NCBI GenBank assembly: GCA_900314865.1
Contig: OMWW01000003.1
Coordinates: 186,001 to 250,000 of the forward strand
DNA from: an uncultured Erysipelotrichaceae bacterium
GTDB taxonomy: Bacteria; Bacillota_I; Bacilli_A; RFN20; CAG-826
Length of the DNA: 64,000 nucleotides
Direction: 5' to 3'
Part shown: in pieces, positions 13,887 through 20,053 of the stretch
How the letters are laid out: each line of letters opens with the position of its first letter
Numbering within the stretch: the first letter of the stretch is position 1
Notes under the pieces: model-generated
What the model was told of the DNA's origin: nothing
Seen by the model: the letters and a program-made list of their open reading frames with translations, nothing else
Database searches by the model: none
Position numbers and translations under genes: made by a program

Positions 13887-15161
13887 ATGGTTATCTTATC
13901 TACAAGTGACATGTTCGATATTAAAGTTTCCTCACTTTTAGCGGATTACGATCGTGAGACAATCACTAATCTATATCAACCTTTAATTGGATTTACCGCT
14001 TTAGCGGTGTATTTCACTTTCTGGAGTGAAGCAAAGAACCAAAAGATTACTTCTATGAGTAGCCATGAACAACTTTTAGTGAGGATGAAAATGGCTACTG
14101 GTGTTTTTATTGAAGCCAGAAAAGTCTTAGAAGCAGTGGGGCTTGTTAAAACTAGATTAGAAAAGATGAACGGTCTTTCTATTTATCACTATGAGTTATT
14201 CGCTCCTAAAACCCCTTCTAAGTTCTTTAACGACACTCTTTTGTATGGATTATTAATCCAAAACCTTGGAGAGAATGACGCTAATAGATTAAAAAGAGTC
14301 TATGAAACAAGCGGATCAAATGAACAAGGTGAAGATATCTCCAGTTCATTTAATGATGTATTCCATCCAGATTACGAAGATGCTGCTTTCTTAAAAGCCA
14401 CAAGTGGAGTTAGCAATACTCTTGGTAGAAAAAAGAGCAAGATTGATACTGAATTCTCTTATGAGAAATTCTTTGCTACTTTAGCTGACATCAGTCAAAT
14501 CGGTGAAAAATCAATCACCAAACAAGAAATGAAAGAAGTGGAAAGAATTGCTACTTTATATGGTGTTAGTGAAGAAATTACTGCTGAAAAAGTTGCTAAT
14601 AACTTCATTGTTAGTAACCCTAAGGGAAGTAGAATTGATTTTAAACAACTCGACAAAGACTTACAAAATGAAGTCAATTATGGAGTTCGTTCTTTAAAGA
14701 AAAACAAGAATAAAAACATCGCTATTGGAGAAGAAGGTTTAGCGGCCAAAGTTAAGTTATTTGAGAGCAAAAACCCTAAAGAAGTTCTTTCAATTTTACA
14801 AAATGGCACCAAACCTGCTGCTGCCGATTTGAACATAGTTCAATCTTTAGCGAGTGACTATAAACTCACCAATGGTGTGATTAATGTTATTATCGACTTT
14901 GTTTTGCAAATGAATAATAACGTTCTTTCTAAATACTCTGTCGAGAAAATTGCCTCATCAATTTCTAGAGAAAATATTGAGACCGCGATAGATGCGATGC
15001 AATATTTAAACGAGAACTACACTGGTAGTCAAAAGAAACGTGCCTCTACTATTAAATCAATTAGTAAAAAAGCAAATAAAGCCGAGAAAAAAGAAGAACA
15101 AAGTGATATCTTAAGTGATGAAGATATGGAAAAACTTCTCGAAGAATTTAAGGATCGATAA
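13887..15161 (+). CDS. dnaB: Replication initiation and membrane attachment protein DnaB (helicase co-loader)
   Basis: In Bacilli DnaB works with DnaD and DnaI to load the replicative helicase at the origin and at restarted forks; it is not the helicase itself. The 424-residue protein starts with the winged-helix region whose LYQPLIGFTALAVYFTFW segment is characteristic, and has a C-terminal DnaB/DnaD-type region with the helical segment KYSVEKIASSISRENIETAIDAMQYL, followed by a charged tail. Length is slightly below Bacillus DnaB (about 470). It overlaps dnaI by one base (TAATGG). nrdR, which precedes dnaB in Bacillus, is absent here. Confidence 0.88.
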   Translation: MVILSTSDMFDIKVSSLLADYDRETITNLYQPLIGFTALAVYFTFWSEAKNQKITSMSSHEQLLVRMKMATGVFIEARKVLEAVGLVKTRLEKMNGLSIYHYELFAPKTPSKFFNDTLLYGLLIQNLGENDANRLKRVYETSGSNEQGEDISSSFNDVFHPDYEDAAFLKATSGVSNTLGRKKSKIDTEFSYEKFFATLADISQIGEKSITKQEMKEVERIATLYGVSEEITAEKVANNFIVSNPKGSRIDFKQLDKDLQNEVNYGVRSLKKNKNKNIAIGEEGLAAKVKLFESKNPKEVLSILQNGTKPAAADLNIVQSLASDYKLTNGVINVIIDFVLQMNNNVLSKYSVEKIASSISRENIETAIDAMQYLNENYTGSQKKRASTIKSISKKANKAEKKEEQSDILSDEDMEKLLEEFKDR

Positions 15162-16063
15162 TGGAAAGATTTAAATTAGATAAAAACTTAGAAATTGATT
15201 CTTCAACCGTCAAAAAGATGGAGGAGGAAGTTTTTTCTAATCTAAAAGCCGTTAAATATCTTCATAGTATAGGATTAAATGATGATTTAATTAGAAAGCA
15301 CATTGACAAAATCTATGATTTTGCAGTGGACATGAATAACTGCAAAGGCTGCAAAGGCCTTTCTTATTGCAACAAAGATCCTAAGCACTTGGTAAGTTCT
15401 GTTATCTTTAAAGATGGTGTAGTTGATCGTAACATCATTCCTTGTAAGAAATATTTAGAATTCACAAACTTCAAAAAGAGATTTGTGATGTTCGATTTCC
15501 CTGAAGAGTGGCTTGAAAACAAGATTACAGAAGATGTTAGAAACAATCGCTCAAAAGCCAAACTTGAAGTCCTTTCTTTATATTCGAAGGCTATTAAAGG
15601 CGAAAGTAATCGTTGGGTCTTTATGAAAGGTGACATCGCTAGTGGAAAATCTTTCTACGCTGGAACATTATGTGTAGACGCTGCAAGAAACGGTTCTTTC
15701 AATAAAATTGTATTTATTAATATTCCAAATAAGTTTAAAGAACTTAGCGATTTAGCGTTTTCCAAAAATCCTAACTTTAATAATGAAATTGAAAAGATCC
15801 AAAATTCAGATTTATTAGTCCTCGATGATTTTGGAAATGAATTTAAAAGTGATTTTGTTAGAGACAATATTCTCTTTCCGATCTTATCTTATAGAGTTAG
15901 AAATAAACTCTTTACTATAATTACTAGTAATTATTCAATTGATGATTGCGCATCGATGTATCAAACATCAAACGCTTCCAAACCAAAAATTGAGCAAATT
16001 CGACAAATGCTCAATTTAATGTGTAAGAAAGAAATACTTATAATCGATCCTTCGCTTCAATAA
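15161..16063 (+). CDS. dnaI: Primosomal protein DnaI (helicase loader ATPase)
   Basis: DnaI is an AAA+ ATPase that delivers the replicative helicase. The 300-residue protein has an N-terminal helicase-binding zinc domain with Cys61, Cys64, Cys70, His76 and Cys95, then the ATPase with Walker A GDIASGKS (about 157-164) and Walker B LLVLDDFG (about 218-225). A sensor region (IITSNYSIDD) and a C-terminal RQMLNLMCK segment follow. It is the second gene of the dnaB-dnaI unit. Its end overlaps the convergent mutM-coaE gene by 26 bases, so no terminator separates them and antisense overlap is expected. Confidence 0.93.
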   Translation: MERFKLDKNLEIDSSTVKKMEEEVFSNLKAVKYLHSIGLNDDLIRKHIDKIYDFAVDMNNCKGCKGLSYCNKDPKHLVSSVIFKDGVVDRNIIPCKKYLEFTNFKKRFVMFDFPEEWLENKITEDVRNNRSKAKLEVLSLYSKAIKGESNRWVFMKGDIASGKSFYAGTLCVDAARNGSFNKIVFINIPNKFKELSDLAFSKNPNFNNEIEKIQNSDLLVLDDFGNEFKSDFVRDNILFPILSYRVRNKLFTIITSNYSIDDCASMYQTSNASKPKIEQIRQMLNLMCKKEILIIDPSLQ

Positions 16064-17444
16064 AGGTCTTCTTTATATCCTTTTTAAATGAGGCGAGGTC
16101 ATTATTATTCATGATAAGGTAAGTAGCCTTATTTTTATTTTCATCAATTTTATTGGTCTTATTAATTTCTTCAAGATATAACGCAGAATTTTTATCGCGT
16201 TTGTATAATCTTTCTTCCTGAATCTTTTTATCGATATCGATAACCACAATTGTATCAAAATAGTGGTCCATTTTTGATTCAAATAGTAAAGGAACTTCAA
16301 CCACTCTAATTGGGTTATTTTCTTTATCTAAGAAATTTATAATTTCTTTTTCCACTATTGGATGGACTATTTTTTCTAATTTACGTTTGTCTTTAGGATT
16401 TAAAATCAAATGATTTCTGAGTACACCTTTATCAACTTTATTAGATGCAAATTTGATTTTTAATGTCTTCTCAATTAAGGTAGCAACTTCTTCTTTTTCA
16501 TATAGTTTTTTAACGATTTCATCGCTACTTAAAGTAGCTGCTCCTAATTCTTTATATAAATCTAAAGCAGTGGATTTGCCGGAAGAGATTTTACCTGTTA
16601 ATCCGATATTAATTGGAGCGCCTTTTTTCATTTGGCATACTGGGCAGAAAGTAGTGCCTCTTCCACCGACCTTAATGAAGCGATACTCATGTCCACATGT
16701 AGGACAAACTTCTCCGCTTCTACCATATATCTTAATTCGAGTTTGGAAATTACCATCAATGTCCTTACCTGGATGATAGCTTTTAATAGTGGAACCGCCC
16801 ATCTCAATGGCAATTGAAAGGATTTCTTTCGCGTTACTTATTATGGCTTCCCATTCTTTTTTAGTTACTTGATTAGTAAGAGTCAATGGATGGATGTGAC
16901 TTGCGTATAATGTTTCATCAACATAAATATTTCCTAAACCTGTAATAAGGGTTTGATCAAGTAGTGTAGTTTTAATTGGTTTACGACTATTTTTGACCTT
17001 TTTCATAATCTCATTAACATCTTTAACTTCGAAAGGCTCAGGACCAAGCTTTGCGAGCATTTCTTCTTGCTTATATGTTGATTCACTTGATAGTTTTAAT
17101 AGACCAAAAGCGCGACTATCGTCATAGCAAAGTTTCTTTCCATCAGTGAAGTGGAAAACAACTTTTGCGTATTTGCTATCAGGTTCAACTTCGTTATATT
17201 CGTAGTACTTTCCTTCCATTCTTAAATGAGAAATAATGACAAAGTCATTAGTTAAGTGGAAGATAAGATATTTACCAATACGAGACATGTTTAAAAATGT
17301 CTGTCCGATTAAACTAGAAACAAACTTGCTTTTATCACCTTCAATTGTTAAATCACGATAGACATCAATGCTTTTGATGGTCTTCCCAATAACAATTTTT
17401 GAAAGGACATTTTTAATAGTTTCAACTTCTGGTAATTCTGGCAT
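16038..17444 (-). CDS. Fused formamidopyrimidine-DNA glycosylase and dephospho-CoA kinase (MutM-CoaE)
   Basis: One uninterrupted frame encodes two complete enzymes. Residues 1-271 are MutM/Fpg, which removes 8-oxoguanine: it starts with the catalytic MPELPEVE (Pro2, Glu2-3 region), has SRIGKYL with the conserved lysine and ends in a zinc finger (CPTC ... CPVC). Six residues later, from about 272, CoaE begins with the P-loop GLTGKISSGKS and continues for a normal length (about 197 residues) with HPIV and VEVPLLFES; it adds the 3' phosphate in coenzyme A synthesis. The genes are neighbours in Bacillus (polA-mutM-coaE), so loss of a stop is a simple origin. The internal ATG at 16631 has no SD. 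polA lies 2 bases upstream. Confidence 0.93.
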   Translation of the reverse strand: MPELPEVETIKNVLSKIVIGKTIKSIDVYRDLTIEGDKSKFVSSLIGQTFLNMSRIGKYLIFHLTNDFVIISHLRMEGKYYEYNEVEPDSKYAKVVFHFTDGKKLCYDDSRAFGLLKLSSESTYKQEEMLAKLGPEPFEVKDVNEIMKKVKNSRKPIKTTLLDQTLITGLGNIYVDETLYASHIHPLTLTNQVTKKEWEAIISNAKEILSIAIEMGGSTIKSYHPGKDIDGNFQTRIKIYGRSGEVCPTCGHEYRFIKVGGRGTTFCPVCQMKKGAPINIGLTGKISSGKSTALDLYKELGAATLSSDEIVKKLYEKEEVATLIEKTLKIKFASNKVDKGVLRNHLILNPKDKRKLEKIVHPIVEKEIINFLDKENNPIRVVEVPLLFESKMDHYFDTIVVIDIDKKIQEERLYKRDKNSALYLEEINKTNKIDENKNKATYLIMNNNDLASFKKDIKKTFIEAKDRL

Positions 17445-17446
17445 AA

Positions 17447-20053
17447 CTATTTACAATCGTACCAAGATTTTCCATATCCTCCATCAACTTGTAGAGGAAT
17501 TGATAAGTTCAAGGCATGAACCATCTTATCTTGGATAATCTTGTAGGCGATTTCCTTTTCTTCGAGTGGTACTTTGAATATTAATTCGTCATGTATTTGC
17601 AAGACCATCTTGGTCTTTAAATTGTTTTCTTTAATCGCTTTATCAACTTCTATCATCGCCATCTTAATTAAATCAGCAGCACTTCCTTGAATTGGTGCGT
17701 TCATCGCAGCTCTTTTGGCAAATTCACGAACTTGATAGTTACTGTCATGAAGCTCTCTAAGATATCTTCTTCTACCCATCATAGTAGAGACATATCCATT
17801 TTTAAGAGCTTGATCTACAACATTTCTGAAGAAATCGTTCACTTCTGGGAATTCTCTATAGAAGGAATTGATGATTTCTCTACTCTCTTTTACAGATGCT
17901 TCGATTTGATCTGCTAAACCCCAATCAGAGATGCCATAGATGATACCGAAATTAACAGCCTTAGCTTTCCTTCTTTGAAGCGGAGTTGGCTCTCCTTCTA
18001 AATGAAAGATTTTCTTCGCTGTAGCGGTATGGATATCGCTATTAGGATCTTCGAAGATTTTCTTAAGATTTTCACAGTTTGATAAATGGGCTAAAATGCG
18101 TAATTCAATTTGTGAATAATCAAGCGATAAAATCTCAACGTCTTCATTTTCATAATAGAAGGCTTTTCTAATCATTTTGCCTTCTTCATCTCTAATAGAG
18201 ATGTTTTGTAGGTTTGGATTAGATGAACTCAATCTACCAGTTTGGGTTTGTGCTTGGTTGAAATTAGCGTGAATCTTACCATCTTTATAGACGTGATTCT
18301 TTAACCCTTCTACATAAGTAGAAACGAGTTTAGCGTATTTACGATATTCAATGATTTTAGCTACGATAGGATAATCATTTACATATTCCTTTAATGTTTC
18401 AAAAGAAGTGGAACGGCTTTTTTTATCAATTATGCCAAGTTTATCATAAAGAATTTCGGTGAGTTGCTTTGGTGAAGATACATTGAATTTCTCGCCAGCT
18501 AGTTCATAGATTTCTTCTTCTAATTTTCTTTCTCTTTCTTTCCAAATATCTCCCATTGCGTTTATTACGTCTTTATCAAGTGGGAATCCTTCAATTTCCA
18601 TCTCGGCGAGGACATTTACCAAAGGTAATTCGAGGTTGTTGTATAAATCTAAAGCGGAAATCTTCACTAATTCAGCTTTGATTTTTCCTTCTAAAAAGAG
18701 AGAATAATACGCTGTTTTGGTGGTTTTGTCTGGATTTTCATTAGAGAATAGTGAAAGGCTTTCATCTTTATTTTCTACTAAATCAATTCCATAGACGTTT
18801 AAAACCGATTCAACTTTATTTTTTATAGAGGTATCGATTAAATAAGTAGCGATTAATATATCAAATTCAAGACCGTTAACTTCGATACCTAAATTTGATA
18901 ATCCAACCTTAATTGATTTGTAGTCATAGCAATATTTTTTGATATTTTCATCTTTTAAAATGTTTTTAATCGATTCATCGTTTTTAGCGTCTTCAATAGA
19001 GATATAGTAGTTGTTTAATTTCGTAGAAATAGCAATACCAAAAATCTCGGAATTGAAATAGTCTTCATTATCGTCAAAATCAACAGCGATTCCTATGGAA
19101 TGAGGTAACTTAATATCTTTAAATGATTCAACTTTTTCGATATTAAGTTCCATGGTTTCATCACCGATAATTTTCCATTTAGGTGAGACTTTATTCATGA
19201 ATTGCTTAAAACCATATTTTTGACAGAATTCATTGATGAGTTTGAAAGAATATCCGTGATACACAGTGTCTTGTAAGGAGAACGGTAATTCAATATCTGT
19301 TTTAATGATTGCTAAGTCTCTTGATAAACGACCCATTTCTGCGTTTTCTTGTATCGTTTCTCCAAGTTTCCCTTTAATCTCACCGCTATGAGCGATGATG
19401 TTATCGAATGAGCCATATTCTTGAATCAATTTTACAGCGGTTTTTTCACCAACTCCTGGTATACCAGGTAGGTTATCTGCGCTATCACCTCTTAATCCTT
19501 TATAATCAATGATTTGAAGTGGCTCAAAACCATATGTTTCTTTAACCATTTCTGGAGTCATTTCTAAAATATCAGACAAACCTTTACGAATGGTTTGGAC
19601 GGTGATTTTATCACTCACCAATTGAAGAAAGTCGCGGTCTGAGGTGTAAATGGAGACTTCGTAACCTTCTTTTTCGGCAAGCTTAGCAACTGTTCCGGCA
19701 ATATCGTCACCTTCAAATCCTTCTTCTTCGAATTGGAAAATGCCAAAAGCATTTAAGAATTCTCGAGCGATAGGGAATTGCTTTACTAGATCTTCAGGAG
19801 CAGGTTTACGATTGGCTTTGTAGGTTTCAAGAGCGTCGTGACGGAAATTATGTTTTGCTGCGTCAAAAGCAACAAAAATACTTTCTCCTTCTTTTAAAGA
19901 AGAGACAATTTTATTAATCATGTTGCTAAAAGCAAAGATGGCGTTTGTTGGGATTCCATCTTGGTTTCTCATTATTTCAGCGCCAGGATAGGCGGTAGCG
20001 AAATACGCTCTAAATAGTAATGAGTTTCCATCAATAATAGTTAATTTTGCCAT
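17447..20053 (-). CDS. polA: DNA polymerase I
   Basis: Pol I fills gaps and removes RNA primers. The 868-residue protein has an N-terminal 5' nuclease (GIPGVGEKTAVKLIQEYGS helix-hairpin-helix), a central exonuclease-like domain and a C-terminal polymerase with LSLDYSQIELRILAH (motif A), RRKAKAVNFGIIYGIS (motif B) and QIHDELIFK (motif C, near 822). The proofreading domain looks dead: the DTE of motif I reads DFD, and the third motif lacks its Tyr and Asp, as in Bacillus. It is third in dnaE-polA-mutM-coaE on the minus strand, with gaps of only 2-3 bases, so repair and replication genes form one operon. Confidence 0.97.
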   Translation of the reverse strand: MAKLTIIDGNSLLFRAYFATAYPGAEIMRNQDGIPTNAIFAFSNMINKIVSSLKEGESIFVAFDAAKHNFRHDALETYKANRKPAPEDLVKQFPIAREFLNAFGIFQFEEEGFEGDDIAGTVAKLAEKEGYEVSIYTSDRDFLQLVSDKITVQTIRKGLSDILEMTPEMVKETYGFEPLQIIDYKGLRGDSADNLPGIPGVGEKTAVKLIQEYGSFDNIIAHSGEIKGKLGETIQENAEMGRLSRDLAIIKTDIELPFSLQDTVYHGYSFKLINEFCQKYGFKQFMNKVSPKWKIIGDETMELNIEKVESFKDIKLPHSIGIAVDFDDNEDYFNSEIFGIAISTKLNNYYISIEDAKNDESIKNILKDENIKKYCYDYKSIKVGLSNLGIEVNGLEFDILIATYLIDTSIKNKVESVLNVYGIDLVENKDESLSLFSNENPDKTTKTAYYSLFLEGKIKAELVKISALDLYNNLELPLVNVLAEMEIEGFPLDKDVINAMGDIWKERERKLEEEIYELAGEKFNVSSPKQLTEILYDKLGIIDKKSRSTSFETLKEYVNDYPIVAKIIEYRKYAKLVSTYVEGLKNHVYKDGKIHANFNQAQTQTGRLSSSNPNLQNISIRDEEGKMIRKAFYYENEDVEILSLDYSQIELRILAHLSNCENLKKIFEDPNSDIHTATAKKIFHLEGEPTPLQRRKAKAVNFGIIYGISDWGLADQIEASVKESREIINSFYREFPEVNDFFRNVVDQALKNGYVSTMMGRRRYLRELHDSNYQVREFAKRAAMNAPIQGSAADLIKMAMIEVDKAIKENNLKTKMVLQIHDELIFKVPLEEKEIAYKIIQDKMVHALNLSIPLQVDGGYGKSWYDCK

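Follow-up and report, generated by a model that had tools for sequence, protein, structure and literature searches.

A single-frame fusion of a MutM-type DNA glycosylase with dephospho-CoA kinase, found repeatedly among Bacilli and Mollicutes

Introduction

The closest described system to the gene reported here is a gene cluster named 'DNA glycosylase / Dephospho-CoA kinase', for which, in the part of the source available to us, reporter tests indicate that frameshifting may occur as well as coupled initiation (PMC3711429). A two-frame mutM/coaE cluster is thus already in print. As far as the accessible text describes it, this cluster combines the two functions of our locus in identical order; it consists of two frames with a transition, whereas our locus is one uninterrupted frame in which no shift is needed (PMC3711429). 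Dephospho-CoA kinase (CoaE, DPCK) is also a fusion partner elsewhere. In the HAD-DPCK fusion of mycoplasmas, as presented in the portion of the article at hand, CoaE forms the C-terminal half of a protein with two functions; our protein resembles it in these points and in its setting among Mollicutes relatives, but has a DNA glycosylase in place of the HAD hydrolase (PMC8721197). The accessible part of the same article mentions animal COASY (PPAT-DPCK). COASY and NCBIfam NF002879 (CoaE with a C-terminal extension, 395 positions) have partners other than MutM, and our protein reaches 60 bits against the NF002879 cut-off of 215. Stand-alone MutM/Fpg proteins (PDB 3jr5, 1pji and others) have the whole MutM fold in common with it at 37-42% identity; the listed chains are of 250-300 residues and without a CoaE partner. 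In phytoplasmas a CoaE has been annotated as formamidopyrimidine-DNA glycosylase, according to the passage of the source seen (PMC3322544). In the titles, abstracts and accessible passages of the literature searched, no description of an in-frame MutM-CoaE protein was found.

In this study, we analyse such a protein from an uncultured Erysipelotrichaceae bacterium. The window, i.e. the whole stretch of DNA analysed, comprises 64,000 nucleotides (positions 186,001 to 250,000 of contig OMWW01000003.1, assembly GCA_900314865.1); an earlier note, made from its letters alone, had pointed to the fusion. An essential cofactor enzyme and a DNA-repair enzyme are joined here in a fusion that is widely kept and was repeated several times.

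Results

One open reading frame encodes both enzymes

The fused gene and its neighbours lie in the window as follows (evidence in brackets).

13887..15161, plus strand: dnaB-like (DnaB_2) replication initiation gene (Pfam)
15161..16063, plus strand: dnaI-like gene, convergent with the fused gene (Pfam, frame list)
16038..17444, minus strand: fused mutM-coaE gene, 468 amino acids, one open frame (121-row alignment of fused proteins)
16041..16613, minus strand: CoaE part, residues 278-468, with P-loop 284-291 and Asp308 (TIGR00152, PDB chains, conserved residues)
16614..16631, minus strand: junction residues 272-277, from the zinc finger to the first CoaE strand (linker length and pLDDT)
16629..16631, minus strand: internal in-frame ATG, Met272 (sequence)
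16632..17444, minus strand: MutM/Fpg part, residues 1-271 (TIGR00577, key residues, structure match)
17447..20053, minus strand: polA, not fused, ending 2 nt before the mutM start (Pfam)

The frame starts with ATG at 17444 and stops with TAA at 16040-16038, and its Pfam domains follow in the order Fapy_DNA_glyco, H2TH, zf-FPG_IleRS and CoaE. The earlier note's reading of a full-length MutM and a full-length CoaE in one frame is borne out on the minus strand, both equivalog models scoring above their cut-offs: TIGR00577 (Fpg) with 295.4 bits against 203.3 over residues 1-271, TIGR00152 (CoaE) with 101.6 against 65.55 over residues 280-458. PF01121 (CoaE) reaches 96.4 bits against 27. The MutM part carries P2, E3, K58, the H2TH domain (PF06831) and a four-Cys zinc finger (C247/C250/C267/C270). 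In the CoaE part the P-loop GxxxxGK[ST], the catalytic Asp, the HP and PLLFE motifs and the lid Arg are all present. A sequence search against the PDB matched CoaE chains (best E 7.5e-18), so that both halves have solved relatives. Within its own genome a protein search matches this locus alone, and the CoaE profile does likewise; it is the sole MutM and the sole CoaE found. Both parts share one frame in the window; a two-frame arrangement with a programmed shift was not found there. One stop-free frame through both genes recurs in independent genomes, in 139/210 non-redundant pairs.

In Bacilli, polA-mutM-coaE and dnaB-dnaI form a neighbourhood, and the context in the window resembles it, with a DNA polymerase III alpha gene further upstream of polA. 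The convergent 3' ends of the fused gene and the dnaI-like gene share 26 bp (16038-16063).

The same architecture in relatives

The earlier note had proposed to look for the architecture in related genomes and had named separate genes in close relatives, together with a missed stop codon, as evidence that would speak against a fusion. A search of 96 related genomes gave a match in 91, and the matched loci were examined except those of G086 and G094, which likewise have fused-looking rows. This set holds 76 fused loci in four families (f1, f2, f3, f5); beyond these, one f2 locus ends at a contig edge and one has an early stop. In the genus of the window all 17 loci with a whole gene are fused, the opposite of what the note had named as contrary evidence; two further genomes of the genus gave a 51-residue fragment at a contig end and no match, respectively. 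In f6 and f8 mutM and coaE are adjacent but separate. The f4 genomes have a MutM without adjacent coaE, which lies elsewhere or was not found, so the fusion is not required.

Some loci in the fused families are incomplete. In f1, locus L047 ends at a contig edge. Locus L037 (G019), from a 400-kb f1 genome that is 66% complete, encodes a MutM of 274 aa but no CoaE was found, possibly through a secondary loss of the CoaE half. The fused f2 gene L034 (G075) has a TAG at mutM codon 8, from sequencing error or real decay. In two f1 genomes (G020, G041; 96-97% complete) no MutM/CoaE match was obtained, which may reflect an assembly gap or joint loss; by a rough estimate, the number of f1 genomes without a match seems about what incompleteness would give.

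A class sample of 296 genomes added fusions in f12, f16, f19, f25, f26, f27 and f28. Named carriers include the cultured type strain Acholeplasma equifetale ATCC 29724, Candidatus Onthovivens merdipullorum and a Candidatus Izimaplasma bin. In a named-genome scan, the best 80 loci include no fused one whose title names a lineage other than Bacilli/Mollicutes or unplaced Firmicutes. Altogether, the 262 loci with a MutM match comprise 165 fused, 79 adjacent but separate, 11 without adjacent coaE and 7 short ones. The 210 non-redundant adjacent pairs (139 fused, 71 separate) were chosen partly for fused-looking matches and give no estimate of prevalence.

In the unfused f16 loci (L175-L194, L151, L157, L160) coaE starts inside the zinc-finger codons of mutM in another frame, and the genes overlap; the coaE ATG (GTG in L175) lies 48 nt before the P-loop glycine. 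A frameshift had been considered for f16, taken as Acholeplasmataceae, where three unfused loci seemingly lacked a coaE start; with the ATG/GTG within the zinc finger, no shift need be invoked. No fused row was seen in the small-genome genus of f16, which we take to be the phytoplasmas.

Gains and losses of the fusion

A tree was built from the mutM/coaE parts of 115 of the 210 pairs, 58 of them fused, with the linker excluded. The rows of f1, f3 and f5 cluster (SH-aLRT 97) and are all fused, and a single clade of all 58 fused rows is rejected (AU p 0.00021). Branch support varies over the tree, with 49 starred among the 112 inner branches. At least 10 state changes are needed. Parsimony at equal cost gives 6-7 gains and 3-4 losses. 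Making gains three times costlier changes this to 2 gains and 13 losses, and making losses twice costlier to 12 gains and 0 losses. That the fusion was gained more than once is a robust statement, since every cost scheme gives at least two gains. Both states occur within each of f16, f19, f25, f27 and f28 and within the f2/f6/f8 group. The fusion had been put forward as a lineage marker; it turns out to be homoplasious, having arisen and/or broken several times, and its presence alone marks no lineage.

Where the two genes are not fused, they touch or overlap and often share a frame. Where the P-loop of an unfused pair is at most 120 nt from the last zinc Cys (n=68), coaE is in the mutM frame in 29. 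The main difference between f8 and the fused state is an in-frame TAA, which in three f8 loci precedes the start codon (ATG) of coaE by a few nt; a further f8 locus has overlapping frames. These in-frame pairs and the f8 TAA agree with the earlier suggestion that neighbouring genes were joined by loss of a stop codon.

The upstream neighbour serves as a comparison. polA lies upstream of mutM in 188/210 loci, with a gap of at most 10 nt in 140 of the 188, and 29 of these 140 are in frame. Despite this closeness and the in-frame cases, a polA-mutM fusion was found in 0/188 loci.

A short junction of nearly fixed length

Residue 270 is the last zinc Cys, the first modelled CoaE strand runs from 278, and the P-loop Gly is residue 284. 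The previously given spacing of about six residues between zinc finger and P-loop thus fits the distance to the first CoaE strand; the P-loop glycine follows after 13. Counted from the last zinc Cys to the P-loop Gly, 51 of the 76 fused loci have a distance of 14 and 22 a distance of 11; by family, 52/53 f1 pairs have 14 and 22/22 f3 and f5 pairs have 11. Indels in the junction (1/45 f1 rows) are as rare as within the folded core. The length of the linker (14, 11 or 10) may mark lineages better than the fusion itself does.

An AlphaFold2 model of the protein has a pLDDT of 92.3 and a pTM of 0.82, with pLDDT block means of 90-93 over residues 261-290. Judged by pLDDT and pTM, the linker, nearly fixed in length, is modelled as ordered. 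The model matches MutM-DNA structures with Z 34.7 over 269 residues. This comparison of the full-length model listed MutM and Nei entries only; the second half is assigned to CoaE by sequence.

State of the two halves

On the MutM side K58, N172, E177, R262, Zn1, Zn3 and Zn4 are kept in 139/139 fused rows, and P2/E3 in all 137 that include that end. The second zinc Cys (Zn2) differs in 4/139; in the f27 fused rows L134, L135 and L150 it is replaced in the alignment (3/3). On the CoaE side the P-loop GK and Asp308 are kept in 139/139, and other positions are looser than in unfused rows: the HP-motif His is present in 104/139 fused against 70/71 unfused rows, the lid Arg416 in 126/139 against 69/71 and the PLLFE Glu in 92/139 against 71/71. 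Among pairs with a MutM identity of 0.40-0.45, CoaE identity has a median of 0.277 in fused and 0.330 in unfused ones; within-family distance ratios overlap (1.61 in fused f1, 1.68 in unfused f23). From these looser positions and the greater CoaE divergence, CoaE activity may be reduced or changed in some fused members.

Discussion

The gene is best read as encoding a stable two-enzyme protein that was born by stop-codon loss, is produced 1:1 and has both enzymes working; on the sequence evidence we give this a probability of about 0.78. The single polypeptide would consist of an N-terminal Fpg/MutM with free Pro2, a short ordered junction and a C-terminal dephospho-CoA kinase. It would have originated from a touching polA-mutM-coaE string in which the mutM stop codon was lost. 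In the clade of the window (f1, f3, f5) the fusion is old and is kept in all examined loci that have both parts; other clades formed the same fusion and sometimes reversed it. The likeliest effect would be that the sole MutM and the sole CoaE are made at a fixed 1:1 ratio, a substitute for the translational coupling between the unfused genes. The frame itself, its conservation and recurrence, the retained residues and the polA comparison are observations; accumulation of the full-length chain, activity of both enzymes within it and an advantage from the stoichiometry are inferences. The fusion is real, old, repeatedly evolved and ordinary in its chemistry; any benefit is putative.

The nucleophile of Fpg is its N-terminal proline, exposed by removal of Met. 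An N-terminal partner should therefore kill Fpg, and a C-terminal one need not. That polA was never found fused to mutM is as expected if MutM requires a free N-terminal proline, and the unfused polA is a built-in control which suggests that the direction has a chemical cause. The direction of fusion would then be set by chemistry, with MutM accepting a partner at its C terminus only.

An artefact, i.e. a stop codon missed in assembly or sequencing, might be suspected from one draft genome; as 139 non-redundant loci from many assemblies, including that of the cultured A. equifetale, show this open frame too, it was rejected and keeps a negligible probability. A more serious alternative is that two proteins are made from the one frame, CoaE mainly by internal initiation at Met272, with the long product minor or cleaved. 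The in-frame ATG at 16631, the start of coaE near the mutM end in unfused relatives and the motif MSTIIGLTGG, retained within the linker of f19-type fusions, speak in its favour, as does the coupled translation of a mutM/coaE cluster in reporter cassettes in E. coli, as given in the available part of that work (PMC3711429). Yet the linker holds an ATG in only 4/76 fused loci and any ATG/GTG/TTG in 18/76; for the larger set these counts are 11/139 and 40/139, leaving 99/139 without a start codon. Within the genus of the window, two of 17 loci have a linker ATG, at different places, and the sole minus-strand promoter-like match in 15800..17700 sits within the CoaE part. The note had remarked that the internal ATG lacks an SD; this is true and does not discriminate, the mutM ATG being likewise without an SD-like sequence. 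The linker sequences give no support to a conserved internal start, which seems unlikely, and we regard synthesis of two proteins as improbable. Even less probable is that the CoaE part has become an ATP-binding appendage of MutM that no longer makes CoA. Such a role would suit the relaxed conservation of the HP, PLLFE-Glu and lid-Arg positions in some fused rows; against it stand the invariant P-loop and Asp308, the HP, PLLFE and lid Arg retained in the window, the lack of any other CoaE found in the genome and the finding of CoaD in 24/25 genomes tested.

A neutral reading rivals the two-enzyme protein with a dosage benefit: the loss of a stop codon between touching genes whose ends tolerate joining may have been fixed repeatedly by drift in small genomes. 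It has the same one-chain anatomy and differs on benefit alone. The genes were already adjacent and often in frame, there were several gains and losses, the genomes are mostly of 0.8-2 Mb, and the neutral reading is compatible with all sequence data. Order-wide retention in the clade of the window, the near-fixed linker and the ordered modelled junction weigh against it, but none of these proves selection, and we put drift at somewhat below an even chance. It is unlikely, if a little less so than the making of two proteins, that the joining itself was selected because the halves communicate or co-localise, linking 8-oxoguanine repair to the CoA/redox state or the last CoA step to the nucleoid, or, in a weaker form, because an essential downstream CoaE shields mutM from loss by frameshift or nonsense mutation. 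If the weaker form were true, the repair gene could not easily be discarded. The recurrent fusion of unlinked enzymes is a natural test of drift, dosage control and repair-gene protection; since a cultured A. equifetale carries such a fusion, it is experimentally testable. For annotation, transfer from either family may label just one of the two functions.

The CoA pathway around the fusion has a gap of its own. CoaB (PF04127) was found in 0/25 genomes and CoaC (PF02441) in 0/15, with 14/14 control genomes positive for both; CoaX (PF03309) is present in 14/15. At G000:C4:184759-185346, a short way ahead of where the window begins, and in relatives, CoaX, CoaD and CoaE are present and CoaB/CoaC were not found. 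Judged from these profiles, CoA synthesis would have a hole across these lineages, and the fused CoaE would end a pathway without recognisable CoaBC. Perhaps the pathway is fed by imported phosphopantetheine; salvage of the phosphopantetheine type is discussed for mycoplasmas in the part of the literature source available (PMC8721197).
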